From the IMG/VR virus record IMGVR_UViG_3300025876_000036, positions 1 through 46,026 of that record: DNA of 46,026 nt; one strand, 5' to 3'. Both the position numbers and the translations under genes were made by a program. The notes under the pieces were generated by a model that saw nothing but the letters and a program-made list of their open reading frames with translations, ran no database searches and had not been told where the DNA came from. This document shows positions 938 to 34,092 of the stretch, piece after piece. Position 1 is the first letter of the stretch. Each line of letters begins with the position of its first letter. The DNA is from a virus.

Positions 938-954
938 TATATTTTTTAATTATA

Positions 955-1278: not shown

Positions 1279-1283
1279 GGTGG

Positions 1284-1361: not shown

Positions 1362-1368
1362 ATATTAG

Positions 1369-1396
1369 TATTACACATTTTTGAAAAATGTAGAAA
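1369..1396 (-). promoter_or_regulatory. Putative late promoter, minus strand (fibre operon)
   Basis: Read on the minus strand: TTTCTA at 1396-1391, 15 nt, TGTAATA at 1375-1369 (preceded by TG), then 7 nt to the ATG at 1361. It matches the two-part motif found before the other transcription units, with a spacer one nucleotide shorter. Confidence 0.6.
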
Positions 1397-1463
1397 TTAA
1401 TATCGCATATTATACTAGCCTTTTATTAAAAACTTTGTGTAATTTGTTTTTTACCTTCATTAT

Positions 1464-1492
1464 TTTCACAAAATCTCACTTTGAATGTAACA
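1464..1492 (+). promoter_or_regulatory. Putative late promoter, portal gene
   Basis: TTTCAC at 1464-1469, 16 nt, TGTAACA at 1486-1492, then 6 nt to the ATG at 1499. This spacing decides the portal start: the in-frame TTG at 1481 lies inside the promoter motif. Confidence 0.65.
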
Positions 1493-1498
1493 TTTGTC

Positions 1499-3478
1499 AT
1501 GGCAAAAAATAATTACAAGGCAGATAATCTTTATTTTACTAATAGGAAGAAATATTATGAGCAGAAGAGATTTGAACCGACAAAGTCACTGGGATCTGAC
1601 TTTTCTAATGAAGATTATAACAAAATGGTTGGATTCGCTGGTAGCGAATGGGTAGAAGGTGGTTTGAGTCGCAGAGGATTAGACTCTCTAGGGGTTAACA
1701 GTCAGCTATCGATTAGGTTCCCCAATTTAACTGGTGGAGGGAATCTTTATAAAAATAATGGAGGCTATATTACAATTAATGAGACCGTATGGCTTTGTCA
1801 AAAAGCTTGGGAGGAATTCCAGCTATTCCGCAACACCATTGAAGCTATGGTCGAATTCTCTATGTCAAAAATTAAATTATCGTCCCCCAATAAGAGTGCT
1901 AAAAATTTTTGCGAGACTTGGCTAAAGGCTATTAATATAGATGGATTTGCGGAGCAGTTTTATAGAGAATTGTATAGATCTTGTAACGTTTTCCCGTATG
2001 CGATGAAAGGGAAGATCAATATGAAAGATGCTAGAGATTTAAAGATGCATGCATCTAGTGCGGAAATACCAGTAAAATATACGATTCTTAATCCAGCCCA
2101 AGTAAGTTTATATGGGGGTTTGACAAACGACAGGGACATTTATAAAGTTTTAAGTCCCTACGAAATTAAAAGATTGAAAAATCCGCAAACTCAAAGTGAG
2201 AAGATTTTGTATCAAAAATTAAGTCCAGAAATAAAACAAGCGATTAAAAATAGTTCTGAAATATCTCAAACATCTTCTATTTATATACCTCTTAAAGACG
2301 TGAGTTCTGTTTTTTATCAAAAACAAGATTACGAATATTTTGCAGTACCACTTTTTTATGGAGTCCTAGACGATATTGAATTAAAGCTTGAAATGAAAAA
2401 GGCTGATAGGAAAGTTTTAAAGACCTTGGAGAATATGATTCTTAAGGTCACTATGGGAGGTTATAAAATTGACGGTAACGAAGTGCCTCCCAACCCAGAG
2501 CATTTAGCTTACATGAGGCAGCTTTTTAATAATGAGTCAACCCAGAGAGTTCTTGTTGCAGATTACACTACTGAAGTTGAATATGTTATTCCAGATATTA
2601 CCAAAGTTGTAGGAGTTGAAAAATATGCTCAGGTAAATGAGGATATTCGCGAAGGATTGCAGTCAATTTTTGGCAGCAACGAGAAGTTTTCCAACCAAAT
2701 GACTAAAGTTAGGGTATTTTGCCAGCGACTTAAGAGGGGGCAGTCTATTTTCAAAGAATGGATTGAAGGGGAAATCGGGAATATTTGCAAAGCTATGGGA
2801 TATACAAACCCTCCGACAGTAAAACTCTCTTCTATTAGCCTTGAAGACCAAACCCAAATGAACAGGGTTTACACTCGCATGGCCGAATTGGGATTTTTGG
2901 TTCCAGAAGAGTTAAATACAGCAATCGAAGATGGTATTCTCCCAGAAAAATCAGAAAGCCTTGAAAATCAAAAAGAGTATCGTAAATTGAAAAACGATAG
3001 CCTTTATGAACCACAAATGAATTACAACCCAACAGATGAGGATTCTGGTTCATCTCGTAAAAGTGAAATAAAAAAAGAAAGAGGAAGACCAGCTGGTAGT
3101 GGCGTTCCGATTGGCGGACCTAGACAAAGCAGAGTTGTCGGCGGTATCGGGGGTATCTCCCTGAAGGAAATACAATCTTGTCTAATAGAGATGGATAAAA
3201 TTAAAGAAAATGTAATTAAAAAACTCAAGGGTAGTTACAAGGTTAAGAAACTTACAGATTCCCAAGTTGATTTTGCCAATTCAATTGCGAAAAAGGTTGT
3301 CGAAAATTATAAAAAAACTGAGTGGGGAAAAGCTGTTGCCTCTGTGATTAAAAACAAATCAATTGATGAGGACCCAAAGATGCAAGAAGAGATCGATAAA
3401 ATTTGTGATGATTTTGAATTAGACGCTTTTCTGGGCGCTTTAGTCTGGCATTCTCGCAGGGATGCACCAAGCAATTAA
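1499..3478 (+). CDS. Portal protein
   Basis: 659 residues. Portal proteins form the dodecameric ring at the capsid vertex through which DNA is packaged and to which the neck attaches. Supporting features are the length, the position as first head gene ahead of protease/scaffold, decoration and capsid genes, and portal-like sequence: an N-terminal helical region (about 90-170), YTILNPAQVSLYGG at about 193-206, a long helical stem region (about 295-460), and a C-terminal linker (GRPAGSGVPIGGPRQS, about 530-545) followed by a Lys-rich helical tail. I chose ATG 1499 because it lies 6 nt after a TGTAACA box; an in-frame TTG at 1481 would add six residues but overlaps the promoter. No Shine-Dalgarno is visible. 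The terminase genes that normally precede a portal are not in the window; the upstream neighbour is a divergent fibre operon. Confidence 0.85.
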   Translation: MAKNNYKADNLYFTNRKKYYEQKRFEPTKSLGSDFSNEDYNKMVGFAGSEWVEGGLSRRGLDSLGVNSQLSIRFPNLTGGGNLYKNNGGYITINETVWLCQKAWEEFQLFRNTIEAMVEFSMSKIKLSSPNKSAKNFCETWLKAINIDGFAEQFYRELYRSCNVFPYAMKGKINMKDARDLKMHASSAEIPVKYTILNPAQVSLYGGLTNDRDIYKVLSPYEIKRLKNPQTQSEKILYQKLSPEIKQAIKNSSEISQTSSIYIPLKDVSSVFYQKQDYEYFAVPLFYGVLDDIELKLEMKKADRKVLKTLENMILKVTMGGYKIDGNEVPPNPEHLAYMRQLFNNESTQRVLVADYTTEVEYVIPDITKVVGVEKYAQVNEDIREGLQSIFGSNEKFSNQMTKVRVFCQRLKRGQSIFKEWIEGEIGNICKAMGYTNPPTVKLSSISLEDQTQMNRVYTRMAELGFLVPEELNTAIEDGILPEKSESLENQKEYRKLKNDSLYEPQMNYNPTDEDSGSSRKSEIKKERGRPAGSGVPIGGPRQSRVVGGIGGISLKEIQSCLIEMDKIKENVIKKLKGSYKVKKLTDSQVDFANSIAKKVVENYKKTEWGKAVASVIKNKSIDEDPKMQEEIDKICDDFELDAFLGALVWHSRRDAPSN

Positions 3479-3539
3479 AGTGAAACAAATATAATAATTT
3501 TACTTTTATAATACCATCGATAACTCTGAGTGCTTTTAA

Positions 3540-3568
3540 TTTCACCAAAATGAACAAAAATTGTAATA
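3540..3568 (+). promoter_or_regulatory. Putative late promoter, protease/scaffold unit
   Basis: TTTCAC at 3540-3545, exactly 16 nt, TGTAATA at 3562-3568, then 6 nt to the ATG at 3575. The sequence between portal and next gene holds no terminator. Confidence 0.7.
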
Positions 3569-3574
3569 AAATTT

Positions 3575-3985
3575 ATGAATAAATTAAAATTTAGTAATTC
3601 AATTGTGGCAGAAATTTTTCAAAAGGAGCAGAAAGTAGAGGGGTCAATAGAGGAAAATAGCGATGGGACTGTTACTTTAGCTTATGATTATTCCGATCGA
3701 CCAGAGGGATCTGGAACTTCCAGTTACGAGATCGACGAAAAGATTGCCAGATGTATGGAAGGCATGTCTTCTTCTATTAATAAAGAGTTGAGTTGGATGA
3801 ATCAGCGTATCGATTATTTGGCAAAAGCTCTTTACGAGCATAAAGAAGGTCACTTACCTAACCCCCAAACACCATCTCAAATGCAAACAGCGATTGAAAC
3901 TTTGGGCATGGGGGAAGATTACGAAGTTAAGAAGCGTACAATCTATGCAAGCTATGAAGGCAAATCCTTAGAGGCAACTTACTAA
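3575..3985 (+). CDS. Hypothetical head-region protein, 136 aa
   Basis: I do not recognise the family. The protein is acidic, with an N-terminal half rich in charged and polar residues (SIEENSDGTVTLAYDYSDRP) and a helical middle (KIARCMEGMSSSINKELSWM). Its stop overlaps the start of the protease/scaffold gene by one nucleotide (TAATG), so the two are translationally coupled and probably needed in similar amounts during prohead assembly. It sits between portal and protease, a position often used for small head-assembly or accessory proteins. It starts 6 nt after a TGTAATA box with no Shine-Dalgarno, a leaderless candidate. No transmembrane segment or signal peptide is visible. Confidence 0.65.
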   Translation: MNKLKFSNSIVAEIFQKEQKVEGSIEENSDGTVTLAYDYSDRPEGSGTSSYEIDEKIARCMEGMSSSINKELSWMNQRIDYLAKALYEHKEGHLPNPQTPSQMQTAIETLGMGEDYEVKKRTIYASYEGKSLEATY

Positions 3986-5583
3986 TGAATAAAGATCAAA
4001 TTAAAAAAGATTATCCATTTTCCACAAAAATAACTGCGGAATACCAAGTTATTCATCCGAAAGAAAGAGATGAACATCTCGCACTGGCATCTTTAGATTC
4101 TTTGAAAGCATTGCTTGATGTACCTAAAGAACAAATAGAGATGAACAAAGACCTTCTGTATATTTCTGCTGATTTATGGGTAGGGGGGATGGCTAATAAA
4201 AATGGGCATGCAATCACAACTGAAGATACAATAGCACTGGCCAAGCAAATTCCTCATAAATATTTGAACCTTGAACATGATGAAGATGTTGTCGTCGGAT
4301 CTCTTTTCTCTTATGGATTCCGTGAATATGCGAATGAAAGAAATTTAATTCCAGAAGAAGATATTAAAGATTTGAACAAACCAATAGTTGCTTCTGGTGG
4401 CGGTTTTGTTTGGCGCAGTATTAACCCAGATTTGGCCGAATTACTTGTAGAAGCTTCTGATAAAAATTCTTTGAAATATGGGCAAGCATCATTCAGTTGG
4501 GAAGTTTATTTCAAAGAGTTCGCGATCATGGAAGGTTCAAAATTTGTTAATCAAGCACAAATAATTGATGATGAATCTGAAATAGAAAAGCGTGTTCCGT
4601 TTTTAAAAGATAACGGCGGCTCTGGAGAATATGAGGGTAAAGAAATTTACCGTCTAGTAAAAGGTCCGAAACTATTTTTGGGAGCTGGTATAGTAGGCAA
4701 TCCTGCCGCTGATGTTAAAGGTATCCTTACTAGTGAAACAGAAGAAGATGTGAAAATTAAAGTAGAAGCTTCAAAAGATTATGAAGATCAAGAAGTTAAA
4801 AGAACAAGTAAAAAGAAAAAAGAAATTTCACATTCAAAAAAAATAAATGTAAAGAAATATACAGCTATGAAAATTAAAAATCAAGAAGATTATAAAACTG
4901 TATTAGCTTCTGTTTGCGAAAGCGAAGAAGTTGATCATAAACTCCTTGCCTCTCTTGAAGCGAATTTCGATAAAGTAACTGCTTCTGCAATTGCTGATGC
5001 GATCCGTGATGAGAGCGCCAAGTTTGCTACTGAGAAGAAAGAACTCGAAGAAGCGAAAGTAAAGGCCGCCGAAGAAAAAGCTAAAATTGAAGCAGAACTT
5101 ACAGAGCTTAAGGAGAAATCCGAAGCTTCTGAAGAAGAACTGAAAGAGATTAAAGCCAAACTTGTCGCGGAAGAACAAACTCGCATTTTCAGCGAACGTA
5201 TGGAAGCACTAGAAAAAGATTATGATCTTGAAGCTGATGACTCTAAAGTTATTGCTAAACAAATCAAGAGTCTTGACGAAGGTGGTTACGATGCTTGGCT
5301 CGAAGATTTCAAGGTTTTTGCTAAAGAAAAGTCTAAAGACTATAAAGCTAAAAAAGCCGAAGAAATGAAAAAGAAACAAGAAGAAGAAGAAGCTATTAAA
5401 GCCAAATCTTCAACTGAAGAAACTGAAGAGCAAAAAGAATCTCGTGAAAAGGAAGACGCTGCAAAGCTTATTGCATCTGCACAAGAAGATGTAAAACAAG
5501 AAGTAGCATCGACCCAACATGAAGAAAAAGTTTCCCTTGCAGATCAATTCACTGAATTCGAATTAGAGCTTGAAGGAAAATAA
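3985..5583 (+). CDS. Prohead protease fused to scaffolding domain
   Basis: 532 residues in two parts. Residues 1 to about 255 resemble phage prohead maturation proteases of the herpesvirus-assemblin-like serine protease type: a His in KYLNLEHDEDVVVG (His98) and a Ser in GQASFSWEVYF (Ser169) are the likely catalytic pair, with GPKLFLGAGIVGNPAAD near the end of the domain. Residues from about 295 on are highly charged and predicted coiled coil (EKKELEEAKVKAAEEKAKIE), typical of scaffolds, ending EFELELEGK. A Lys-rich linker (about 270-292) separates them. The protein should direct prohead assembly, then cleave itself and other head proteins. An in-frame ATG at 4867 (Met295) could give a separate scaffold product, as in phages with nested protease/scaffold genes. 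It overlaps the upstream gene by one nucleotide. Confidence 0.8.
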   Translation: MNKDQIKKDYPFSTKITAEYQVIHPKERDEHLALASLDSLKALLDVPKEQIEMNKDLLYISADLWVGGMANKNGHAITTEDTIALAKQIPHKYLNLEHDEDVVVGSLFSYGFREYANERNLIPEEDIKDLNKPIVASGGGFVWRSINPDLAELLVEASDKNSLKYGQASFSWEVYFKEFAIMEGSKFVNQAQIIDDESEIEKRVPFLKDNGGSGEYEGKEIYRLVKGPKLFLGAGIVGNPAADVKGILTSETEEDVKIKVEASKDYEDQEVKRTSKKKKEISHSKKINVKKYTAMKIKNQEDYKTVLASVCESEEVDHKLLASLEANFDKVTASAIADAIRDESAKFATEKKELEEAKVKAAEEKAKIEAELTELKEKSEASEEELKEIKAKLVAEEQTRIFSERMEALEKDYDLEADDSKVIAKQIKSLDEGGYDAWLEDFKVFAKEKSKDYKAKKAEEMKKKQEEEEAIKAKSSTEETEEQKESREKEDAAKLIASAQEDVKQEVASTQHEEKVSLADQFTEFELELEGK

Positions 5584-5612
5584 TTTCACATCGTAAAAAA
5601 ATAATTGTAATA
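5584..5612 (+). promoter_or_regulatory. Putative late promoter, decoration/capsid unit
   Basis: TTTCAC at 5584-5589, starting immediately after the stop codon of the scaffold gene, then exactly 16 nt and TGTAATA at 5606-5612. The start codon is 20 nt further on, leaving room for a short leader, unlike the 6-7 nt spacing at several other genes. Confidence 0.7.
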
Positions 5613-5632
5613 ACATTTAACTAATAAAAATT

Positions 5633-6202
5633 ATGGCATTCAAAGACTTAAAACTAAAACCCCTTCGTAATATCTCTCCGTACGACATTCGTTCGCATCT
5701 TAGAGCAGACTTTACTGGCGAAGCTGGTGATCTTGTCAAGGTTAAAACTTTTGACCCTGACAGCGACACTTACTACGCTCAAAATCAATCAGTTGGCGCT
5801 TCTAATGATGGCGTCTTCTCTAATCAATTCCAATCTCCTTGGACTGTTGAACTAGCTACTAGTGGCGATTTGGCTGCTGGTATCCTCGGTATCACACTCG
5901 AAGGAACTGCACTTACTGACAACCACGGCAACAAGATCGATGGCTTCAACCAACGTTGGGCTGATGAGAATGGCTTCGTTGCTTCTGGCAAGCCAATCCA
6001 AATCGCTACTCGCGGTAACTTCTGGATTAGCAGCAGTGTTGTTAATGGCAACCCTCAGCCCGGCTCTGGCCTTGCTGCTGGTGCTAATGGTGGATTCAGA
6101 GTCGTCAATCCAGCTACCGCTGGTGCTGGACTTGTTGTAGCAAAAGTTCTTTCTTCTGCTGGAACTCGCCAAGGCGATGTTAACATCGAATTAACCCTCT
6201 AA
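5633..6202 (+). CDS. Putative head decoration protein
   Basis: 189 residues, rich in Gly, Ala, Ser and Asn with little charge, beginning MAFKDLKLKPLRNISPYDIR. The ADFTGEAGDLVKV and GILGITLEGTALTDN stretches are consistent with a beta-rich decoration protein of the sort that stabilises expanded capsids. The main argument is position: it lies 20 nt before the major capsid gene, in the same promoter-terminator unit, and shares that gene's high-expression look (higher GC and repeated use of favoured codons), implying similar copy number. The function is inferred from context. A head fibre or accessory capsid protein is the alternative. Confidence 0.65.
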   Translation: MAFKDLKLKPLRNISPYDIRSHLRADFTGEAGDLVKVKTFDPDSDTYYAQNQSVGASNDGVFSNQFQSPWTVELATSGDLAAGILGITLEGTALTDNHGNKIDGFNQRWADENGFVASGKPIQIATRGNFWISSSVVNGNPQPGSGLAAGANGGFRVVNPATAGAGLVVAKVLSSAGTRQGDVNIELTL

Positions 6203-6222
6203 TCATAAACGGAATTATTTAT

Positions 6223-7371
6223 ATGAAAATTAAATTAAAAGAAAAACCTGAACATATCGAACTTATCAAAGCTATGGGATCTCGTGATAACGAAGCATCT
6301 CGTGAAGCAATGAGAGTATTCGCCCGTCTTGTCGGTCCTCTTGCCAAGAAAGTACTTGATGAAACAAACGTAATCGATAGTTTCTACGACACTCTTTCTG
6401 TTGGTGAGTACGAGCCTCGTACTATCCCTCTTGATGACTATCACAACATCTCTGATGCAGATTATGTTCGTGTGTCGTTCTCAAGTCGCCCTGGAGATCT
6501 TGCTTACAACCAACTTACTGGTGCAGACGATGTTGCTTTCAGCACTGCTTTCATTAGTTCCGCAATTGCGTTCTATAAGAAGTATCTTAAGGCTGGTCGT
6601 ATCTCCCACGCAGAGAATGGTATCCGCAAGCTTATCAACGAAGTCCGCTTCAAGATGAAACGCCAAGGTATCCAGCCAATTCTAGATGCACTTGCAAATT
6701 CGACAACTAACGGTGGCAAACACCTTATCCGCTCGAACACAGCAGGTCAGCTTGGACTTGATGACTTTAACCGTCTTCAAACAATGGCTGCTCGTATCCT
6801 TACTTCTGGCCTTGGTGATACACCATCGGGTATCGACAATAGCACTCGTGCTATCGATACTTTGATCATGTCACCTGAAATGGTAGAAGAGATCCGTGCA
6901 ATTGCTTATCAGCCAATGAATACTCGTGGTGTTCCTGATAGCAACGAATCAACAGCAGTTGCTGCTCCTGATAGCGTTCGTGAAAGCGTTTATGCTTCTG
7001 GTGGTATCCCTTCCATCTACGGAACTGAAATCATCCAGCTTAACGAAATGGGTATTGGACAAGATTTCAATACTATCTTCGATACTCTTGCTGGTTCGGT
7101 TGAATATCCTGATGCTGGTGAAAAATTCGATTCTGCTACAGCTACTGGCTTTGCTGGTGCAACTGAAGAGTTCGTTCTCGGTCTTTCTCGTAAAGTCGAT
7201 GTTAACGGCCTCCTTAAGGTTGAAATCGAAGACGGCGAAACTGGTGCAAACTTCAATGTTTCTCCTGATGATCAGTTTGTTGCTCGTGAGGGTAAGACTG
7301 GCATGTGGGGCGAAGCGGAAGTTGGCTATCTTGCAGTAGAGCCTCGTAACCTGTTTGGTCTTATCGTTTAA
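6223..7371 (+). CDS. Major capsid protein (HK97-fold type)
   Basis: 382 residues. Evidence: its place after portal, protease/scaffold and decoration genes; normal length for an HK97-fold capsid protein without a fused scaffold; an N-terminal helical segment (MKIKLKEKPEHIELIKAMGS); a loop region with R and P residues (EPRTIPLDDYHNISDADY); a spine-helix-like region (about 120-160); and a C-terminus in beta structure (GYLAVEPRNLFGLIV). Codon use is more GC-rich and uniform than in the unknown genes around it, as expected for the most abundant virion protein. A strong intrinsic terminator follows 21 nt after the stop. The protease upstream may trim the N-terminus, but no cleavage site can be fixed from sequence. 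Confidence 0.88.
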   Translation: MKIKLKEKPEHIELIKAMGSRDNEASREAMRVFARLVGPLAKKVLDETNVIDSFYDTLSVGEYEPRTIPLDDYHNISDADYVRVSFSSRPGDLAYNQLTGADDVAFSTAFISSAIAFYKKYLKAGRISHAENGIRKLINEVRFKMKRQGIQPILDALANSTTNGGKHLIRSNTAGQLGLDDFNRLQTMAARILTSGLGDTPSGIDNSTRAIDTLIMSPEMVEEIRAIAYQPMNTRGVPDSNESTAVAAPDSVRESVYASGGIPSIYGTEIIQLNEMGIGQDFNTIFDTLAGSVEYPDAGEKFDSATATGFAGATEEFVLGLSRKVDVNGLLKVEIEDGETGANFNVSPDDQFVAREGKTGMWGEAEVGYLAVEPRNLFGLIV

Positions 7372-7392
7372 TCGGTATTTAAAACATTTACT

Positions 7393-7421
7393 AAAGCCCA
7401 CTCTTCGGAGTGGGCTTTTTT
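7393..7421 (+). terminator. Intrinsic terminator after the major capsid gene
   Basis: An 11-bp perfect stem (AAAGCCCACTC / GAGTGGGCTTT) closes on a stable TTCG tetraloop and runs into a T tract at 7416-7421. It insulates the decoration/capsid unit from the next genes, whose own promoter lies 57 nt further on. Confidence 0.93.
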
Positions 7422-7477
7422 ATTGTCTATTTCTTGAAAAAACTTTATACACTAAAAAGGCATAGAGTATCAATAAA

Positions 7478-7506
7478 TTTCACAAAAAAACATTTTAACT
7501 GTAAAG
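7478..7506 (+). promoter_or_regulatory. Putative late promoter, 106 aa/208 aa unit
   Basis: TTTCAC at 7478-7483, exactly 16 nt, TGTAAAG at 7500-7506 (two mismatches to the common TGTAATA). The ATG follows after 28 nt, with a weak AAGG ribosome-binding sequence in between. Confidence 0.55.
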
Positions 7507-7534
7507 AATAGTGTAAGTAAAACCAAGGAAAATC

Positions 7535-7855
7535 ATGAAAATAAATGGAAGAATAGGAGTTAATGAGCTTAATAAGGCTCTAGGGAATAAACAAGTAATT
7601 TTAGATTGCTCTGGAGCAGTAGATTACGCATGCAAGATTGCCAAGATGGACGTAGACTCGCTTTACAGGCATGGCATGTCGCAATACGGAATAAGACCCA
7701 ATAACCGCACGAAAGGCCGTCCAAGCTTTGAGAAGCGATGTGTGGAGGCCTTTAGAAAAGAAACGGGCCAGAAGATTACACAGGCTGGAGAAAAGAAAAG
7801 ATTGACCAAGAAAAAACAAGCCGAATTGGAAAGAATCTTAGCTAAGGGTAAATAA
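7535..7855 (+). CDS. Small basic protein, 106 aa, unknown function
   Basis: Begins MKINGRIGVNELNKALGNKQ and becomes strongly basic toward the C-terminus (KKRLTKKKQAELERILAKGK). It lacks transmembrane or signal features and has three Cys. Basic proteins here could bind DNA or the capsid interior, but nothing in the sequence names a family. It is the first gene after the capsid terminator and is preceded by a late-promoter-like motif and a weak AAGG ribosome-binding sequence. The next gene starts 10 nt after its stop, so the two are probably co-transcribed and may act at the neck or in assembly. Confidence 0.6.
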   Translation: MKINGRIGVNELNKALGNKQVILDCSGAVDYACKIAKMDVDSLYRHGMSQYGIRPNNRTKGRPSFEKRCVEAFRKETGQKITQAGEKKRLTKKKQAELERILAKGK

Positions 7856-7865
7856 AACAAACTTT

Positions 7866-8492
7866 ATGGCAAAAATAACTTATCTTAATGAAGATCTTTA
7901 CGAAAAAGTAAAGAAAGAAGCTGATAAAAAATTCGAAAAGGATTCCTATGTAAAGAATATGTGGATTCTAAAAGAATATGAAAAGCGAGGAGGCAAAACC
8001 AATAAAGAAGGTAAGAAGCCTAGCGACAAGCAAGTTAAAAAAAGCGTGAAGGGCTATGAAATTAATTTGGATCTTTGGGAATTCGAAGTAGCAGAAGATA
8101 AGGATTACAGCAATTATTGTGAAGAGTTTGGTTTAGAAACTGAAAAAATTATCGCAGAAGATAGTGAAGAAAAAATTTCTGAGGTTTACAGTAAATACAA
8201 GAAGACTGTAAATATGAGCTATAGCTCCTTAAAGAAATGGTCAGAAAATCCATGTAGCAAAACTGCCAGTCTGTCTCGTGGGCCAATTGAAAGAAATTTG
8301 AGATTATTATCCAAAAAGAAGAGTGAGTGGACAATGAGCGACGTTAAATCTGCGAATAGAACAATAAGCTTTGTATCTCGGATGAAAGGCGCAGAACAAG
8401 GAGAAAAAACTACTATCAAGAAAGATGGAGGCAAAATTCTTTGCCCTTCTAAAAGAGATGTTAGTTTAATGAATTGGGCCTACAAGCCCTAA
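7866..8492 (+). CDS. Hypothetical protein, 208 aa, with conserved-looking Trp/Arg C-terminal block
   Basis: The N-terminal half is Lys-rich (YEKVKKEADKKFEKDSYVKN). The C-terminal half (about 117-208) has an ordered block: SYSSLKKWSENPCSKTASLS, PIERNLRLLSKKKSEW, NRTISFVSRMKG and a terminal SLMNWAYKP. I have the impression that similar blocks recur in phage hypothetical proteins, but I cannot name a domain or function. It follows the 106-residue gene by 10 nt and is the last gene of that unit. An inverted repeat (ATTGGGC near 8475 and GCCCAAT near 8531) brackets its end, too far apart for a convincing terminator. Confidence 0.62.
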   Translation: MAKITYLNEDLYEKVKKEADKKFEKDSYVKNMWILKEYEKRGGKTNKEGKKPSDKQVKKSVKGYEINLDLWEFEVAEDKDYSNYCEEFGLETEKIIAEDSEEKISEVYSKYKKTVNMSYSSLKKWSENPCSKTASLSRGPIERNLRLLSKKKSEWTMSDVKSANRTISFVSRMKGAEQGEKTTIKKDGGKILCPSKRDVSLMNWAYKP

Positions 8493-8541
8493 AACATTGC
8501 CGACTTATATTTTAGAATATTAAAGAGGCAAGCCCAATAAG

Positions 8542-8570
8542 CTTCTCCATCTTCGCCTTTTTGTGTAATA
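8542..8570 (+). promoter_or_regulatory. Putative late promoter, neck genes
   Basis: CTTCTC at 8542-8547, exactly 16 nt, TGTAATA at 8564-8570 preceded by TG. The ATG at 8577 is 6 nt downstream; the ATG at 8571 would directly abut the box. Confidence 0.68.
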
Positions 8571-8576
8571 ATGAAC

Positions 8577-9032
8577 ATGGCAGAATTTCAACCACTTTCA
8601 GGCGTAGCCTATGAAATACATCAAGAACTGGAATCACCAGCTAATCCTACGACTGGTAGTATTTTTTATTGGTTAGAGTCGAACGTTGGCAAATTAAACA
8701 ATAAAATTTCAACATTCTACTCTTACGATTCTGGTGATTATTCCCCGCAGCTTGGGCACGACGAAAAAGATATATTAAAAGCTATATATTACGGGTTTTA
8801 TTATAAAAATAAAGCTAGAACCTCTTTGATTTCGACTAGCAATAATAACCTTTTATCTCTTAAAGACGATCAATCATCCGTTTCTTTCGTTAATAATAAA
8901 GATGTTGCTCGTGCCTATAACGATTTGGCTAAAGACTCGGATCGAGAAGCCAATGATTTGGCAAATTTGTGGAAGCATAATAGGAGCGGACCAAGAGATA
9001 CAAAGCAGAGCTGGAGTGGACACTGGCAATAA
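8577..9032 (+). CDS. Putative head-tail connector protein
   Basis: 151 residues from ATG 8577 (MAEFQPLSGVAYEIHQELES). An ATG at 8571 would add two residues, but the 6-nt spacing from TGTAATA favours 8577. Size, the largely helical character of the N-terminal half (YWLESNVGKLNNKI, DEKDILKAIYYGFYYKNKAR) and the position directly after the head genes and before other small neck genes fit the small adaptor proteins that close the portal ring. I see no diagnostic motif, so this is a position-based call. The stop overlaps the next start by one nucleotide (TAATG), indicating coupled translation with its probable partner. Confidence 0.5.
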   Translation: MAEFQPLSGVAYEIHQELESPANPTTGSIFYWLESNVGKLNNKISTFYSYDSGDYSPQLGHDEKDILKAIYYGFYYKNKARTSLISTSNNNLLSLKDDQSSVSFVNNKDVARAYNDLAKDSDREANDLANLWKHNRSGPRDTKQSWSGHWQ

Positions 9033-9487
9033 TGAGTTATTTATCAGCAGAGCAGGAGTCATTGGTAAACGAGGCATTCTCGGAACTTCATTATAACTTT
9101 GCTAAAAGAAATCCTTTTTATGCAGTTTCCGAAGGTGGTCAGACAGTGGTCTCTCATAATATAAATCACAATGCATTTTATGGGGCTTCGCCGCTTAATA
9201 CCGAAGTTGTTACTACAAAGCAGAGCGGACTATTTTATGCCAGAACATCTTTTGTTAATGGATCTGAAAATTTTTACAAAATAAATTTCGGAAGCAATTC
9301 AGAGCCGTTACCAGAAGTTTCTCAGACAATATTGAAGGTTATTACGGATTCAACAGGCAACTCTCTACTTGAAGACGCAGAAAGGATCGAGTGGGACGGA
9401 AGGTGGTACAGTCGTAGATCGGAACCTTTAAAGCACGGCCTTTTGCAGGATAATTTTTATAAATTTTACTTTGAAGAGATAAAGTAG
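9032..9487 (+). CDS. Putative neck/stopper protein
   Basis: 151 residues, beta-rich and aromatic (YGASPLNTEVVTTKQSGLFY, EWDGRWYSRRSEPLKHGLLQ). It is translationally coupled to the preceding connector candidate. In siphophages the second small neck gene usually encodes a stopper that holds DNA in the filled head; the position, size and beta-rich look agree, but no motif proves it. The gene ends just before the next late-promoter motif (9492), so it closes a two-gene unit. Confidence 0.45.
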   Translation: MSYLSAEQESLVNEAFSELHYNFAKRNPFYAVSEGGQTVVSHNINHNAFYGASPLNTEVVTTKQSGLFYARTSFVNGSENFYKINFGSNSEPLPEVSQTILKVITDSTGNSLLEDAERIEWDGRWYSRRSEPLKHGLLQDNFYKFYFEEIK

Positions 9488-9491
9488 TGAA

Positions 9492-9520
9492 GTTCTCCAG
9501 AGGGGTATTTTTGTGTAATA
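9492..9520 (+). promoter_or_regulatory. Putative late promoter, tail-completion unit
   Basis: GTTCTC at 9492-9497, exactly 16 nt, TGTAATA at 9514-9520 preceded by TG, then 6 nt to the ATG at 9527. It starts 5 nt after the preceding stop codon. Confidence 0.68.
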
Positions 9521-9526
9521 ATACCT

Positions 9527-10102
9527 ATGCCGATTTTTCAGAGAAGAATAGATGCTAAAGTCCAAAAAAGTTTGACGGGTCAGAAAGCTAAAAACTTTAT
9601 GATGCGTAAAGCTAAAAACAAGTTGAGCATCGCGAAATCAATGTTAGATGATGATATCGATTCTGATCCCGTATCCCAGAAGATAGAAGGAGACCCAAAA
9701 ACTATTGGTTATTTTGGATTCGAAGAAGGGGAACTGCCAGTAGAAAACTTAAAACGGGCTATGAGCAACCGGATTGGTATGACTTCTAAGAGCACTGTCA
9801 GAACCAGAACGGGAAAATCTTCGCGAGGAGCAACATATAAATTTAAAGTAAAATTTCCCAGTTCTAAGGATATCTATTCAGAATATATTTTAAATCTTCC
9901 TTGGATATCAAAAACTTGGGTCGAGGGGGTTGAAAGAGGCTTGAGTGGAGTAGAAAAATTCGCTTATAAACCGGGCGAAGGTCGCTCAGAATTCGGTTAT
10001 CAGCTCAAGGGAAATGTTAAAGATCCAATCACACCAATACAGGATGATGGTTATATCGAAAGAATTAGAAAGTATTTCTCAGAAAATTTAGCAAAAAAAT
10101 AA
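9527..10102 (+). CDS. Putative minor neck/tail-completion protein (HK97 gp10-like position)
   Basis: 191 residues. The N-terminus is basic and helical (RRIDAKVQKSLTGQKAKNFM); the middle is rich in Ser/Thr/Arg (SKSTVRTRTGKSSRGATYKF); the C-terminus has a Trp-containing helix (LPWISKTWVEGVERGLSGVE) and a DDGYIERIRKYFSENL end. The order connector, stopper, this gene, then a further gene and the tube matches the usual place of tail-completion proteins of the HK97 gp10 type. It starts 6 nt after TGTAATA with no Shine-Dalgarno, a leaderless candidate. The next gene follows within 3 nt of the stop. Confidence 0.5.
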   Translation: MPIFQRRIDAKVQKSLTGQKAKNFMMRKAKNKLSIAKSMLDDDIDSDPVSQKIEGDPKTIGYFGFEEGELPVENLKRAMSNRIGMTSKSTVRTRTGKSSRGATYKFKVKFPSSKDIYSEYILNLPWISKTWVEGVERGLSGVEKFAYKPGEGRSEFGYQLKGNVKDPITPIQDDGYIERIRKYFSENLAKK

Positions 10103-10105
10103 ATT

Positions 10106-10939
10106 ATGAATCCACAATTTAAACATAAATTAGGCTCAAGCCTAGCTTTCTTCTTAGAACATAAGATTATTAGCAAGGGACAAGCTTACACAAATATAAC
10201 TGGAGAACTTTATCCTTCTGATCAAATATTATTTAATGGATTAGATTTTTCATCTAGTCCTGCCGCCCAATGGGTTTATGATTCCTCCATTTCGGGAGCT
10301 GTTATTCCTAACGGAGTTTTTGATGGGGCGGGTAATTTTGTTGATAGAGGTGTTAGCGGACTTAATTTAAACTTTATGAATGGGGGGGCGTATCATAGCG
10401 GGATTACCCAAATATCAGGGGTTTACGCCAAGAAAGATTTAAACTTTTATTTTAGGAATGAAAAGGATGTGGAGCTATTTGTGGAGAAATCTTTTAATGC
10501 GCAAGACCCTATAGACTTCATTGACGGGTCGAATGATCTAAAGATTAATGCTCCATGTATTATTTTGAGCCATAAAGATGGCAAGAATACTCCCTTCGCT
10601 TTCGGAGGAATGGACGAGAGTGAGTCAAACTATCAAGCCATTGTAATTTCAGATGATGCCTATTTAATGGATGGAGCACTGAGTATTTTTGAAGACCTAA
10701 ATCAAACTTGCTTCCCAGTTATAGATTTTCAAGATATACCTTTCAATATTTATGGAGATTTGAAAAATGGGGAATTTAATTATACTGGCTTATATTCGGC
10801 GTATCCAGATTCGATACAGAAAGCGACTGTAGATAGAGTTATAACCAATACCACCAAAATGTCATCTAAGGGTAGAGATAATTTTTATTTAGGTTATGCA
10901 GAATTTAGATTGTTATATTATAAATTTCCAAGAATTTAA
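10106..10939 (+). CDS. Putative tail terminator or tail-associated protein, 277 aa
   Basis: 277 residues beginning MNPQFKHKLGSSLAFFLEHK. It is Gly/Asn/Phe-rich with repeated short beta-like stretches (NGVFDGAGNFVDRGVSGLNL, GYAEFRLLYYKFPRI) and few Lys/Glu helices. It sits immediately before the tail-tube unit, where siphophages encode the tail terminator, but it is longer than typical terminators, so it could be a terminator with an extra domain. I do not recognise a family. Its start follows the previous stop by 3 nt in an A-rich stretch, implying coupling. The next promoter box begins at the last base of its stop codon. Confidence 0.5.
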   Translation: MNPQFKHKLGSSLAFFLEHKIISKGQAYTNITGELYPSDQILFNGLDFSSSPAAQWVYDSSISGAVIPNGVFDGAGNFVDRGVSGLNLNFMNGGAYHSGITQISGVYAKKDLNFYFRNEKDVELFVEKSFNAQDPIDFIDGSNDLKINAPCIILSHKDGKNTPFAFGGMDESESNYQAIVISDDAYLMDGALSIFEDLNQTCFPVIDFQDIPFNIYGDLKNGEFNYTGLYSAYPDSIQKATVDRVITNTTKMSSKGRDNFYLGYAEFRLLYYKFPRI

Positions 10940-10968
10940 TTTCTCATTAAACCAAAAAATTTGTAATA
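10940..10968 (+). promoter_or_regulatory. Putative late promoter, tail-tube unit
   Basis: TTTCTC begins at about 10940, directly after the preceding gene, with exactly 16 nt to TGTAATA at 10962-10968. The ATG is 30 nt further on, giving the longest leader among the sites, in front of a high-copy virion protein. Confidence 0.7.
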
Positions 10969-10998
10969 TTAAATACAACCCTCAACTATTTTTAAATT

Positions 10999-12066
10999 AT
11001 GGCTAGAACACAAGTAAAATATGGATCGGCTGGACTTTTCGTAGGCCCGTCACCAGCGACTGGAGTACATACTTCGATAGCACAACTTCACCGTATCCAA
11101 TCTGTTAGTGATACTTTCGACATCCCTTTGGAGGATGTTAATCAATTCGGCAGCACAGCTGCTTTGGACAGAGTTTTAAACACCTCTCCTACTCCTACAA
11201 TGGAGTTTACATACTATGTAACTGACGGACATAACGAGAACGCATTGGGACTACCAATTGATGGTAGTACCTCTATCGCTGGCGGTCTTTTGGACGGAAC
11301 CGAAGATGACAAGAACTATTTTGCACTATATACAAAGCAAGGAACAGATGCAGTTGGTTACACAACTACTTCAGACGATTTTGTTATAGGTATCGGAAAC
11401 GGATTTATTTCATCTTACTCGGTTTCCGCATCTGTTGGTGGTTTCATGGAAGCTAGTGTTTCCGTAGAAGGCTCAAACTACTCAGTTGAAACTGCTGATG
11501 GATCAATTGATGTGCCAGCGATTAACCCAATTGATGGGTCTGCTATTGCTCAAACCTATACGCTCCCCGTTGCATCAACTGGAACTAGCGCGATGCCAAC
11601 AGTTATTAAAAAGGGTGATATTGCTATTACTGGTTTACCAAGTGATTTGCTAGGTGTAGATCTTAGCCAAGCAAATATCCAGTCATTCTCAGTTTCTGTT
11701 GATTTCCCTCGTGAAGCACTGGAAAGACTCGGTAGTGACTTCGTGTTTGCTCGTCCACTTCAAACACCTATCACTGCAACCGTATCTATGGATTTCGCAG
11801 TATCTGAGTTGGTTGAGGGTAGTCTCGCAGATATTTTCAATAATTGTAATATTAACTCTTACAACTTTGCTATTACTGCAAGCCCGTGCACGGCTGGGAC
11901 AAACACAGAGTCATTCAAGATTGATGTTAGAGGCGCGTTCTTCGAAAGTCAGAATACCTCTGTAGATATCGGCTCTGACAGAAACGGTTCCGTATCGTTT
12001 TCAGTTCCGATTGGAGCTTCTAATGATACAACCAGAGGAATTTTCCTCGATGGTACTGCCGTTTAG
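10999..12066 (+). CDS. Major tail tube protein
   Basis: 355 residues, beta-rich and low in Lys. It is the last gene before the tape measure and stands alone between a promoter and a terminator, as expected for the most abundant tail protein. Two halves with tube-like character are visible: VSDTFDIPLEDVNQFGSTAA followed by a TPTMEFTYYVTDG strand, and a second part with ANIQSFSVSVDFPREALERL and FARPLQTPITATVSMDF. The second half has a counterpart (EHIQSFNYSIS) in the gene at 20195, so tube-fold proteins occur on both sides of the tape measure. The length suggests an extra domain, perhaps exposed on the tail surface. The product polymerises in rings around the tape measure. Confidence 0.8.
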   Translation: MARTQVKYGSAGLFVGPSPATGVHTSIAQLHRIQSVSDTFDIPLEDVNQFGSTAALDRVLNTSPTPTMEFTYYVTDGHNENALGLPIDGSTSIAGGLLDGTEDDKNYFALYTKQGTDAVGYTTTSDDFVIGIGNGFISSYSVSASVGGFMEASVSVEGSNYSVETADGSIDVPAINPIDGSAIAQTYTLPVASTGTSAMPTVIKKGDIAITGLPSDLLGVDLSQANIQSFSVSVDFPREALERLGSDFVFARPLQTPITATVSMDFAVSELVEGSLADIFNNCNINSYNFAITASPCTAGTNTESFKIDVRGAFFESQNTSVDIGSDRNGSVSFSVPIGASNDTTRGIFLDGTAV

Positions 12067-12088
12067 AATTCTATTCAAATATATTATT

Positions 12089-12119
12089 AAATCCCACTGG
12101 AAACAGTGGGATTTTTTTT
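12089..12119 (+). terminator. Intrinsic terminator after the tail tube gene
   Basis: A 10-bp perfect stem (AATCCCACTG / CAGTGGGATT) closes on a GAAA tetraloop and is followed by eight T. The last T residues double as the start of the TTTCAC box of the tape-measure promoter, so terminator and next promoter overlap by 3 nt. Confidence 0.92.
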
Positions 12120-12145
12120 CACTTTGTTTAATATTTGATGTAATA
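12117..12145 (+). promoter_or_regulatory. Putative late promoter, tape measure gene
   Basis: TTTCAC at 12117-12122 (its TTT is the terminator's T tract), exactly 16 nt, TGTAATA at 12139-12145, then 11 nt containing a weak AGG before the ATG at 12157. Confidence 0.68.
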
Positions 12146-12156
12146 ATATTTAGGTT

Positions 12157-15100
12157 ATGGCTCAAAGTGATTTAGAAATTATAGTAGGAGCGGATACGCG
12201 AAATTTAAATCGGAAAGTCGATACGGCTGTCCGCAGACTCGAACGTAAAGGGGTCAATTTAAGCACCCGAAAGGGAGAGCAGGCCTTGGGTCGTATTACT
12301 GGCAAGGCTGACGAGTTTACCAAATCGCTAGAAGCTTCTAATGCCCGTGTTATTGCGTTCGGGGCGTCTGTTGCAGTTATTGAGGGAGTTAGAAGGTCTT
12401 TCGTAAAACTAGTAACTACAATTATAGAAGTTGAATCGCAACTTACATCCATTAACAGTATTTTAGGTCAATCTAACAGTACAATTAAACAGTTTGGGAA
12501 TAGCTTGTTTGATGTTGCAAAACAAACTGGCCAGTCTTTCCAGCAAGTAGCGCAAACTGCTCAAGAATTTGCCCGTCAGGGTTTATCGGTTGAGCAAACA
12601 TTACAACGTACTAGTGATGCCTTAATTCTTACTCGATTAACTACTTTAAAAACTGATGAAGCAATTTCCGCACTTACAGCAACTATTAATGGTTTCCAAA
12701 GGGAAGCTTTAACATCTACTCAAGTCATCAATAAGCTCCGTGCTGTTGAAACATCTTTTGCCGTTTCTTCGGATGACTTAGCTAGTGCACTAGCTCGTTC
12801 TGCTTCTGTAGCTCAAGGTGCTGGGGTTTCATTCAATGAGCTATTGGGCGTTATCACTGCGATTAAGCAGAGAACTGGTCTTGGTGGCGCAACTATTGGT
12901 CAAGGTCTTAAGACCGTTTTTACTAGACTGAATTTACCGACTCGCGTCGCCGAATTAAAAGCATTGGGCGTTCAAATAGATGAAAGCTCAAACGGATTTG
13001 AAAAATTGCGTCAAGTCGCAATTGCTTATAAAGCAGCCCAAAATGCCAATAACCAAGGTTTAGCGACTCAAATTGGAGTTGCAGCTGCAGGGCAGTTTCA
13101 AATTTCCAAGTTATCTGCTGCATTCGATGATTTATCTAACTCATATAGCGTCGCTGATGCTGCAGCCCTAAAATCACTTCAAGCTACTAATGAAGCTAAC
13201 AAGGCAAATGAAGCATACAATCAAACTATTGGGGGGTTATCTAAGACAATTGGTGCTAGTATTGGGAAAATTCTAAATAGTGTTGGAGAGCTAGGGACTA
13301 GTGGAGCAATTAAAGATCTTGTTTTAAACATCAATTCCATTTTAGAAGCTTTTCAAGGAAATACAGTTTCTGGATCTAATGCATTAATTAGTATTTTAAA
13401 TAAAGCTATTGTAGGGGCCAAAGAATTCGGATTTTTACGTGATGCTGCAGAAGGCTTCGCAAAAGTTTTAACTGGACCTGGACTTGTTGCTGCTGCTGCA
13501 GTTATTAAAAATCTATTTTCTAACACATTAATTCAGGGTGGTGCATCTTTACTTTCATTAACTGGGGTTAACAAGGGTCAAAAAAATAGAGAACAGAATC
13601 AAGCTGCTACTTTAAGCCTGTTAAAACAAGGTACTATTGAGGAGCAAAAGCAGTTTACTTTAGCCACTTCGCAAGCTGAAAAAGAAAGAGTTATTCTTGG
13701 GATTTTACAAAAACAGCTTGCTATTCAAACAGCTCAAGAATTACAGTATGTCAGAACTGCAGATGCCATAAGAAAGAAGGGCTTGGTTATAGCGGCTGAT
13801 AGCTCTGGGTATACTATGAGGCAGACGGCTACTTCAAGAGTGCTAGGGCGCGGAGTGGGGTCTAAGGCGGAAGGAACAATACCAGATGCAATTGTTAGAG
13901 AGCAAAATGCTATTAATAAAAATGTAGGAGGTGCTACGTCTAAAGCAAGAGTCCAAGTTATTGAAAAATTTAATTATGGCAGAGGTAAAAAGGGTCCAGC
14001 GGTTGTTAATAGCGAAGAGCTCATTATCCCTAATAAATCTGGAGACATTGTTTTAAACAAAGAAATGATGAAAGGCGGGATGTTAAATAAGAAAGGATTT
14101 AATTTCGCTGCAGGAAGCACACGAGAAATCGCTATAAAAGGTAAACTAGAAAACGGGTTACCCCTGACTAATAAGGATAAAGAATGGCTCCGAAAGAATG
14201 CTGGTAAGAATCCAGCAGGGGCCTCCAGTAGAAGTCAGAACAAAATTTTACCCGCTACGGCTGGTGCTATCGCTAAAAGAGGGGGTAAGGATATTTACCT
14301 TGATACTTCCGACCCATCGGCTAGAAGAGAAAGGTTCAGTACATTGGCCAAGCAAAATCGCGGAAGATCAGCATTTGACTCTTTAATATCTACCGATGCT
14401 CCATCTAAGACAATTGCTAGGAAAAACCTAATAAATAGAGGAGCTTCAGGAGGTTTTGAAAGTCTTACCGCAGGTTCAGGAAAAAATACTTTCGCAGCTG
14501 TTGATCAACGCGGTATTCAAGTGGCTACTGGAGAGGGTAAGAAAGGTTTTGCTGGATTTGCAAGACTACAAAAAAATCTCGATAAGCGGGATATTGAACA
14601 AGCCAAATTAGACGCTCAGGCTGCCGCTATAAAACAGGAAAAAAGAGATGAAAAAGCGCAAACAATCCGAGCGGCAAGAAGAAAATCAGAGCAACAAAAA
14701 AAACAACGAGCTCTGGATCTAAAGGATTTCAAAGAGGATGCGAGGCTCGGCAGTCAGAAAGAAATATTTGAAGGTGGAAAAGAAGCAGGGATAAATACTA
14801 GATTTTCAGCAAAAGATAGAGCTAGTATTCAGGCGGACGAGTATAGAAAAGAGATAGCGCGGCAACAAAATAAAAGAGGCATTACTGATGATGAGTTAAA
14901 TAAAACTCCAGAAGGAAAGGCATTAAAAGCGCAAGTTAGGAAACAAGTTAGAGCTTCTGTTGGTAATAGATTTTTTGAAATAGATAAGCAAGTAGCCCAA
15001 GAACAAGTTGGTGCAGCTCAAAGAGAAATACAAAAGCAAAGCCGCAAAGGGCTGGGGAAGATTGGTCTGCCAAGTTTTGGAAAGTTAGAAAAAAGTTTTG

Positions 15101-18258: not shown

Positions 18259-18287
18259 TTTCTCACTTTATCTTTTTGGATGTAATA
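18259..18287 (+). promoter_or_regulatory. Putative late promoter, post-tape-measure unit
   Basis: TTTCTC at 18259-18264, exactly 16 nt, TGTAATA at 18281-18287, then 18 nt ending AAAAGGC before the ATG at 18306. The first box starts inside or directly at the tape-measure stop. An in-frame TTG at 18276 lies inside the motif and is rejected as a start. Confidence 0.65.
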
Positions 18288-18305
18288 TTAGTTTGGATAA
18301 AAGGC

Positions 18306-18524
18306 ATGGAAGAAAAAGATTATTTATATTTTAATTTTTTGGGTAAACGGTGTATTAAATACATGTTTAAACAATATTTATATCATCTAGAAGATTTACT
18401 TGATAAAAAGTGCATTTCTAGTGATGATTATGAAGAGGCGAGGCAAAGGATTTTAGATATTGGTAATGATCAAGCGAGATTTTTTGAAGATCAAGCTGGT
18501 AATTATTTTGAAATTAACAGGTAA
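18306..18524 (+). CDS. Small protein, 72 aa, unknown function
   Basis: Starts MEEKDYLYFNFLGKRCIKYM and is predicted to be mostly helical (YLYHLEDLLDKKCIS, DDYEEARQRILDIGNDQARF), rich in aromatic and acidic residues, with no clear membrane segment. ATG 18306 is chosen over the in-frame TTG 18276 because the latter overlaps the promoter boxes. A possible ribosome-binding sequence (AAAAGG) precedes it closely. It is first of three genes that follow the tape measure and precede tube-like proteins. A small assembly factor is plausible, but nothing in the sequence proves it. Confidence 0.55.
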   Translation: MEEKDYLYFNFLGKRCIKYMFKQYLYHLEDLLDKKCISSDDYEEARQRILDIGNDQARFFEDQAGNYFEINR

Positions 18525-18533
18525 GGGGGATTT

Positions 18534-20173: not shown

Positions 20174-20183
20174 AAGTGTAATA
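20155..20183 (+). promoter_or_regulatory. Putative late promoter, tail-tip unit (weak upstream box)
   Basis: TGTAATA at 20177-20183 is intact. The hexamer 16 nt upstream is ATTCAA (20155-20160), a poor match to TTTCTC/TTTCAC and inside the preceding gene. The ATG at 20195 follows after 11 nt with an AAGG just before it. Confidence 0.45.
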
Positions 20184-20194
20184 AATGCCAAGGT

Positions 20195-21016
20195 ATGAGG
20201 TATTTTAGAAATCAAGATATTTGTGTAAGATTAGAGGGCGATTCAATTAAGGGAGCGAACTCTTTTTCTTTTGATTCCTCCTATTCTAGTCCCAAAGTAG
20301 AAGTTGTTGGAAAAGGCATTTTAACTCGGAGTTACGGAGGCAAGAACGAGTCTGTAGGATCTATATCGGCGTTAATATTAGACGACGGAAGTGACTTGTA
20401 TAGTAAATTTATTGCAAACAGTGGAGTTATCTCGAATGGATCTCTGGGATCTTCTGATGTTAATTTTAATTTTAACCAAGGGTATATCAATAGTTACACC
20501 TTGAACGGAGGGGTTTCTACCCTACCATCCGATTCGATTGAATTTGTTGCTTATGGGGAGATAGAAAACGAAGAGATCGACCCGCAAGATAATATAGGCG
20601 AGAAAGCATTCAAAAGTAAATCTATTTTTATTGGAGGTCTTGACAGATTAGAAACAGAACACATTCAGTCTTTTAACTATTCCATCTCAACAAGTTGGAA
20701 GCCATCTTATATCATGGGAACTCATCTACCAGTTAATGTTTCTAGGGTGGAAGGATATACAATTTCTTTGGATTTGGATTTGATAGTCGCTGGTTCGGCT
20801 ATGGATAGTGTTATGAATGATTTTGAAAAATTTATAAGTGGATCAAATGATTTAACAATTACTATAACGGGATGCGATGAAACAATTATCTATTCTATGC
20901 CAAAAGCTAATATCGAATCGGAGGGACTAACTGCAAGTGTTGATGGTTTTTTGGAGGGAAGTATCAAGTTTCAGTCATTTGTTAATAATTTAGAAGATTT
21001 GGAAATTGCACCATAA
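20195..21016 (+). CDS. Tube-like tail protein (273 aa)
   Basis: Beta-rich, Ser/Gly-rich protein. The segment KSIFIGGLDRLETEHIQSFN with the following YSISTSW and a later EGYTISLDLDL matches the style of the second half of the tail tube protein (ANIQSFSVSVDFPRE and TPITATVSMDF), which suggests the same fold and common origin. Proteins with a tube fold downstream of the tape measure often form the distal tail or tube-initiation ring. Its stop overlaps the next gene by one nucleotide (TAATG). A weak AAGG lies in front of the start. Assignment to the tail tip is by fold similarity and position, not by a diagnostic motif. Confidence 0.55.
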   Translation: MRYFRNQDICVRLEGDSIKGANSFSFDSSYSSPKVEVVGKGILTRSYGGKNESVGSISALILDDGSDLYSKFIANSGVISNGSLGSSDVNFNFNQGYINSYTLNGGVSTLPSDSIEFVAYGEIENEEIDPQDNIGEKAFKSKSIFIGGLDRLETEHIQSFNYSISTSWKPSYIMGTHLPVNVSRVEGYTISLDLDLIVAGSAMDSVMNDFEKFISGSNDLTITITGCDETIIYSMPKANIESEGLTASVDGFLEGSIKFQSFVNNLEDLEIAP

Positions 21017-25808: not shown

Positions 25809-25820
25809 CGATTGAAAGTA

Positions 25821-26723: not shown

Positions 26724-26725
26724 AA

Positions 26726-33811: not shown

Positions 33812-34027
33812 TTAAATATTTTCTAATATATTATTTTTATAACGCCTCTGAATTGCATTTTTTTTACAACCAGAGCAACCACCACCTTGAAACTCTAATT
33901 CTGCAATGTATTGCTTATGCAGATCTTTGAACTTTTCTGGCAATTCTCCATCTTTAAGTCCAAAAAAAACATTCACAACCTCATTGATATTTTTTTCTAT
34001 TCCTTTATCCCTAATAATCCTTCTCAT
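33812..34027 (-). CDS. Small protein with CxxC, 71 aa
   Basis: Starts MRRIIRDKGIEKNINEVVNV, has a helical charged body and a GGGCSGCKKNAIQRRYKNN tail in which a CxxC follows a Gly run, possibly metal-binding (only two Cys, so it would need a partner). It is the first gene of the minus-strand unit, 7 nt after a TGTAATA box, and its stop touches the ATG of the giant VWA protein. Small Cys-containing proteins next to tail genes can be assembly or regulatory factors, but the sequence does not decide. Confidence 0.6.
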   Translation of the reverse strand: MRRIIRDKGIEKNINEVVNVFFGLKDGELPEKFKDLHKQYIAELEFQGGGCSGCKKNAIQRRYKNNILENI

Positions 34028-34034
34028 AGGGGAA

Positions 34035-34063
34035 TATTACAGTTTTTTTTATAAAAAGAGAAA
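34035..34063 (-). promoter_or_regulatory. Putative late promoter, minus strand (VWA unit)
   Basis: On the minus strand: TTTCTC at 34063-34058, exactly 16 nt, TGTAATA at 34041-34035, then 7 nt to the ATG at 34027. This is a perfect copy of the motif on the opposite strand. Its upstream box touches that of the plus-strand promoter. Confidence 0.72.
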
Positions 34064-34092
34064 TTTCTTATACATACATAAAATGTGTAATA
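34064..34092 (+). promoter_or_regulatory. Putative late promoter, plus strand (LamG/hub/fibre unit)
   Basis: TTTCTT at 34064-34069, exactly 16 nt, TGTAATA at 34086-34092 preceded by TG, then 7 nt to the ATG at 34100. It is back to back with the minus-strand promoter: GAGAAA|TTTCTT is the shared centre. Confidence 0.7.

Follow-up and report, generated by a model that had tools for sequence, protein, structure and literature searches.

The stretch of DNA analysed here (46,026 nt, hereafter the window) is an IMG/VR fragment of a virus whose record ends where the window ends. Genes of its virion block are preceded by a recurrent pair of boxes, TTTCWC and TGTAATA, separated by 16 nt. This raises the question of whether the pair is a promoter and, if so, which factor reads it.

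The two-box motif in the window and in sister contigs

The two-box motif is real. A count made without reference to genes gave nine exact copies of TTTCWC-N16-TGTAA in the window, against 0.12 on average and at most 2 in 60 dinucleotide shuffles. Each of the other 13 spacings between 10 and 23 nt gives the pair once or not at all. The enrichment over shuffled sequence on which the initial annotation had made its proposal depend was thus found, and only at 16 nt. A weight matrix finds 12 window sites scoring above 16 where 0.05 are expected, a result that is not independent because the matrix was made from the same sites; on the sister genome G004 (141,669 bp) the window-derived matrix places 15 sites above 16, with 0.6 expected. 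The 13 boxes listed in the initial annotation are all present at their positions, those at 1486 and 7500 as the variants TGTAACA and TGTAAAG. As described, 11 sites have a spacer of exactly 16 nt and the site at 1375 (-) has one of 15 nt; the upstream box called weak at 20177 reads ATTCAA. A further conserved site, inside ORF 3985–5583, had been overlooked (Table 1).

Motif sites precede the first genes of units and are generally absent before operon-internal genes. The claim that every transcription unit carries one is slightly too strong, since the gene at 36248, which follows a 99-nt gap, is without a site; it holds for almost every late unit. Two TGTAATA copies had been singled out as unpaired. 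None of the unpaired copies has a good upstream box, but there are more of them than those two: the window has 21 copies of TGTAATA, both named and further unpaired ones included. Sigma-70-like TTGACA/TATAAT matches with a 16–18 nt spacer are at chance level in window positions 1–20000 (50 versus 48.9) and the motif letters also differ, so that sigma-70 promoters were rejected for the structural block, in agreement with the initial annotation. Its distinction from T4-type late promoters likewise stands, as the sequence differs and an upstream box is present in the window clade.

Table 1. Putative late promoters and promoter-like sites in the window (+ and -, strand).
Site	Positions	Strand	Context
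TTTCTA-N15-GTGTAATA type, weak -35, G present	1369–1396	-	ATG 1361; conserved in G004
TTTCAC-N16-TGTAACA	1464–1492	+	ATG 1499, gene 1499–3478; orthologous sites in sisters
TTTCAC-N16-TGTAATA	3540–3568	+	ATG 3575, 6 nt past box
TTTCAC-N16-TGTAAAG, internal promoter-like site	4826–4854	+	inside probable protease-scaffold ORF; in-frame ATG 4867
TTTCAC-N16-TGTAATA	5584–5612	+	before 5633–6202 and 6223–7371 (probable major capsid gene)
TTTCAC-N16-TGTAAAG	7478–7506	+	directly after terminator-like hairpin 7393–7418
CTTCTC-N16-TGTAATA, G before box	8542–8570	+	ATG 8577
GTTCTC-N16-TGTAATA, G before box	9492–9520	+	ATG 9527
TTTCTC-N16-TGTAATA	10940–10968	+	before 10999–12066 (probable tail tube gene)
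TTTCAC-N16-TGTAATA	12117–12145	+	before tape measure gene 12157–18258 (PHROGs)
TTTCTC-N16-TGTAATA	18259–18287	+	
ATTCAA-N16-GTGTAATA, weak -35	20155–20183	+	before 20195–21016; conserved in G004 at 21548
TTTCTC-N16-TGTAATA	34035–34063	-	operon 34027–24942 (-); ATG 7 nt past box
TTTCTT-N16-TGTAATA, divergent, G before box	34064–34092	+	ATG 34100, 7 nt past box

Promoters 7478 and 12117 each follow directly on a strong terminator-like hairpin (7393–7418 and 12089–12114), and the -35 box of the latter promoter abuts the T run of its hairpin. The two divergent sites near 34 kb form an abutting pair. The position of gene 1499–3478 after the terminase suggests that it codes for the portal.

Several other features of the window were recorded. 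A 25-aa ORF (1361–1287, -) begins 7 nt past promoter 1375 (-) and ahead of a 107-aa ORF (1278–955), and a 136-aa ORF (3575–3985) separates promoter 3540 from the protease ORF. The promoter-to-protease gap of G004 is about 50 nt, and no counterpart of ORF 3575–3985 was called there. A conserved TTTC[CT]C-N16-TGTAACA site found antisense inside a tail-region gene (24521 (-) in the window, 26108 (-) in G004 and 34148 (+) in G003) may be an antisense promoter or a coding coincidence. The very long ORF 39541–46026 (+), which runs off the end, has repeats such as LTSITIPDSVTSIG that are reminiscent of BspA-like leucine-rich repeats; its position makes the product a candidate receptor-binding protein or adhesin.

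The portal-to-tail block recurs in six contigs (G001–G006), with orthologous promoters as far as each contig reaches. Identity separates three lineages: the window with G001 and G002, G003 with G005 and G006, and G004. Eleven sites of G004 score above 18: nine at 3.5–36 kb, of which one is antisense within a gene, one at 72 kb and one at 78 kb. Genes near 84 kb and at 128–134 kb have weaker sites upstream. The top hexamer upstream of genes is TGTAAT in the structural block of this genome at 1–46 kb (11 versus 0.9 expected) whereas at 96–121 kb it is CTTGAC (22 versus 1.5 expected), accompanied by TTGACA (13 versus 1.9), which splits G004 between two promoter classes. The position and content of the TTGACA-class genes point to an early role. 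Shine-Dalgarno-like sequences are few in G004 (6 of 140 genes in 46–121 kb, versus 13 at a control position), in line with initiation that would be independent of them; AAGGA/AAAGG does occur before genes in the wider family. A genome scan for the host returned four MAG contigs with mixed labels. A weak PEP-CTERM-type match was seen at G004 135450–136079 (L025:15450–16076) and, together with the scarce Shine-Dalgarno sequences, hints at a host phylum such as Verrucomicrobiota.

A phage sigma gene and the GTGTAA element of its family

The initial annotation had proposed a phage-encoded or phage-redirected sigma factor and a search of the genome for its gene. A Sigma70_r2 search of the window fragment found none, and the gene was found in sister contigs G004 and G006. 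In G004 it lies at 121936–122631 (231 aa), near an ERCC4-type nuclease gene and the large terminase gene, and codes for the one Sigma70_r2 match of that genome. The 43-kb contig G006 carries the sigma gene (42233–42925) and eight promoter sites together. The phage from which the window derives would carry the gene as well.

Pfam Sigma70_r2 matches the G004 protein at 3.7e-5, just below the curated cut-off for that protein, and matches 12 of the 12 homologues tested (best 1.3e-7). The NCBIfam sigma70-ECF match spans residues 29–195, and Pfam detects region 4 as r4_2 in two of the 12 homologues, a weak match at 0.015. Cysteines C84, C87, C96 and C108 are invariant and define a Cys-rich region, a probable zinc knuckle that would hold zinc; such a linker is unlike the typical ECF linker. 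Two AlphaFold models, both of moderate confidence, have pLDDT values of 65 for the first and 73.8 for the second (46 sequences), the latter displaying sigma2-type helices, the Cys region and then a helical HTH-like carboxyl terminus domain. The leading PDB matches in Foldseek are sigma factors, many of them ECF and some in initiation complexes, with both domains aligned. Their probability is up to 1.0 with a best E value of 2e-3, none reaching 0.001. TM scores over the whole chain are low, which an uncertain placement of the domains would explain. The protein appears to be a divergent ECF-like sigma factor, with a clear region 2 and weak sequence support for region 4.

A profile scan of viral contigs identified at least 591 stretches encoding relatives of this sigma. 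Searches by tblastn with three family members against 50,697 phage records gave no convincing match (three partial matches with E values of 0.2–0.8 for one probe, none for the other two). An unbiased count in 79 sigma-bearing loci (L074–L152) gave GTGTAA as the top 6-mer upstream of genes, 171 versus 12.2 expected, counts that are not all independent as the loci partly overlap in content. After removal of duplicates, 149 of 239 GTGTAA sites are 14–17 nt from the ATG. GTGTA at 13–18 nt from the ATG occurs 137 times versus 5.4 expected, and zero times in the T4 late region and in 50 kb of pelagiphage HTVC008M. A remote homologue with the Cys motif (G007 9133–9774, L159; E 1e-15) is encoded by a more remotely related phage, where the sequences before genes favour GGTGTA/GTGTAT (GTGTAA 4 versus 2 expected, GGTGTA 10 versus 1.3). 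The motif core follows the sigma across distant relatives. The proposal of a phage sigma was largely borne out by this association, by the genes in G004 and G006 and by the separate host-like -35 class in G004. Since the motif goes with a phage lineage as well as with the sigma, its reader could be another factor specific to that lineage.

An alternative host sigma could also be the reader, ECF sigmas being common in bacteria. A shared host sigma is very unlikely, however, because the motif core spans phage lineages whose own sigmas are 31–43% identical and whose MAG labels are mixed. The preferred reading, to which we assign a probability of about 80%, is that late transcription in an uncultured phage lineage uses the motif as its promoter, with a phage-encoded ECF-like sigma as the reader. 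This factor, composed of sigma2, the Cys-rich probable zinc knuckle and a sigma4-like HTH, would be made earlier in infection and would direct the RNA polymerase core of the host to the phage promoters. Recognition of the -10-like element (G)TGTAATA would fall to its sigma2 domain and, in the window clade, that of the -35 box TTTCWC, 16 nt upstream, to its diverged carboxyl terminus helix. With transcription starting 6–8 nt past the box, most first genes would be transcribed from their ATG or a position next to it, and many late mRNAs would be leaderless. We infer the pairing of this sigma with this motif, the transcription start sites and the late timing.

Transcription of phages phiEco32 and 7-11 starts 6–9 bp from the promoter element (PMC8948821). 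The ATG is 6–7 nt past the box at about half of the window sites, which together with these known distances would place the starts on or beside it. The usual position of GTGTAA, 14–17 nt before the ATG, makes the transcripts of the wider family probably leaderless too. The same tight distance would be expected if GTGTA were a translation signal of the mRNA instead of a promoter element. That is the least probable of the alternatives considered: several boxes of the window clade are 11–30 nt from the ATG and keep the 16-nt spacing between boxes, sites are generally absent from operon-internal genes, and they occupy positions before first genes, among them two immediately past terminators (7393 and 12089) and two that abut in divergent orientation.

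The -35 box of the window clade and the internal site

The window clade differs from most of the family in the preceding G and the upstream box. An anchored logo of the family GTGTAA sites has no -35 element, while TGTAATA of the window clade often lacks the preceding G and has TTTCWC 16 nt upstream. The family at large appears to use mostly the -10 element alone, with a -35 box that is strong mainly in the clade of the window. The earlier view that the pair is what matters must be narrowed accordingly, since GTGTAA usually stands alone in the wider family. In the window, the G precedes TGTAATA at 5/5 sites with an imperfect -35 and at 0/9 with a perfect box (Fisher p 0.0005); inclusion of sites seen only in G004 gives 9/12 and 0/10 (p 0.0005). 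Sigma-70 promoters have a trade-off between the extended -10 and the -35 elements, which this pattern resembles. The trade-off was not found in the family outside the window clade.

The sigma itself also differs in this clade. Alignment shows a carboxyl terminus helix segment of GYKQIKNLKK type in the family and GYRSLASHRK in the window clade, which occupies a very long branch in a tree of 81 sigmas (long branches can mislead). Gain of -35 recognition through the diverged helix is a reasonable hypothesis. Two-box promoters occur elsewhere in the family too: G011 and G014 have TTTCAC-N16-TGTAA 35–36 nt before the next gene after their homologue of window 10106–10939, and G012, a distant relative, has GTTCTC-N16-TGTAATA before the homologue of 10999–12066.

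The clade-specific character of the -35 box would also suit a phage activator bound at TTTCWC that assists the host primary sigma at the -10 element, in the manner of T4 MotA at middle promoters, and the 17 nt between TTCWCN and TAATAN are the spacing of sigma-70 promoters. This arrangement is unlikely. The invariant core is TGTAA and TAATAN has no fixed T at its sixth place; moreover, the -10 element of the wider family stands without the box, G004 has a separate host-like TTGACA class, and a phage sigma gene was found. We lean slightly towards a fuller proposal, in which an undescribed and widespread family of phage sigmas, marked by a Cys-rich linker, would produce leaderless late mRNAs at the GTGTAATA element in a large uncultured phage lineage. 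In the window clade the carboxyl terminus helix would have changed specificity and gained the -35 box.

The site overlooked at first lies in ORF 3985–5583. Relatives conserve the first half of this ORF, and its second half starts at the in-frame ATG 4867. This nested second gene (238 aa) is behind its own promoter-like site, an arrangement kept across the family. In lambda C/Nu3, the scaffold gene is nested in frame within the capsid protease gene. Judged by gene order and its internal start, ORF 3985–5583 is probably the protease gene and its nested product possibly a scaffold; family searches named neither a protease nor a scaffold for it. The site recurs, intact or degenerate, at codons 241–286 in most relatives. 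Its DNA footprint is ambiguous because a peptide pattern, [I/S/T]-S-[Q/H/L]-x6-V, possibly a cleavage site, is conserved there as well. A constraint at the DNA level is indicated by the valine codon, which a hand count found to be GTA in 26/26 lineages; GTA represents 28% of valine codons, and the chance of its exclusive use is 2.5e-7 if 12 lineages are independent. TTTCAC-N16-TGTAA has 13 distinct matches in 1.33 Mb of family sequence at 16 nt versus at most 2 at other spacings. Most of the 13 are the protease-scaffold internal site, and this form was rejected as a general family-wide promoter.

Relation to known phage sigma factors

Salmonella phage 7-11 encodes sigma gp47, a factor with region 4 whose function was shown biochemically; it reads late promoters GTAAtg-16-aCTA, the early genes having host sigma-70 promoters (PMC8948821). 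The window clade shares with it a bipartite late promoter, a 16-nt spacer and, as proposed here, a phage sigma as reader, whereas both 7-11 elements differ in sequence from TTTCWC/TGTAATA. The sigma of the 7-11-like phage GAP52 is only a weak fold match to the present one. Sigma gp36 of Escherichia phage phiEco32, reported to be without region 4, reads middle/late promoters tAATGTAtA with starts 6–8 bp downstream (PMC8948821). That single element with core TGTA resembles the promoters of the wider family that consist of GTGTAATA alone. The differences are the HTH-like carboxyl terminus domain predicted here, the -35 box of the window clade and the ATG placement, which suggests leaderless mRNAs. 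The late promoters of T4 gp55 (TATAAATA) are single -10-type elements of late genes read by a phage sigma2-type factor. The present system is alike in having a -10-type element before late genes and, as proposed here, a phage-encoded reader; it differs in sequence, in the -35 box of the window clade and in its GTGTA placement, which the T4 late region does not have.

Three features of the phage-sigma class are present, namely a region-2 sigma in G004 and G006, a shared non-host motif upstream of virion genes and separate sigma-70-type boxes in G004. The system would work like those of 7-11 and phiEco32, and by detectable sequence its sigma belongs to neither: tblastn with the three family members gave no convincing match in the 50,697 phage records. 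With a one-element and a bipartite precedent in phiEco32 and 7-11, the phage-sigma strategy is already known and the variant is new. The literature searched holds no description of the motif or of its sigma family, and what appears new, judged from sequence, is both of these in a lineage that this literature does not describe.

The motif and its proposed sigma likely give the transcription logic of a large phage lineage without cultured relatives in the collection searched. The promoter signature could predict late genes in metagenomes, and the fixed ATG distance predicts widespread leaderless late mRNAs. Setting the sigma tree beside the promoter sequences makes coevolution of sigma and promoter, from -10-only to bipartite, testable. 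If the proposal is true, the window clade would be a natural example of a promoter architecture changing together with its sigma factor.
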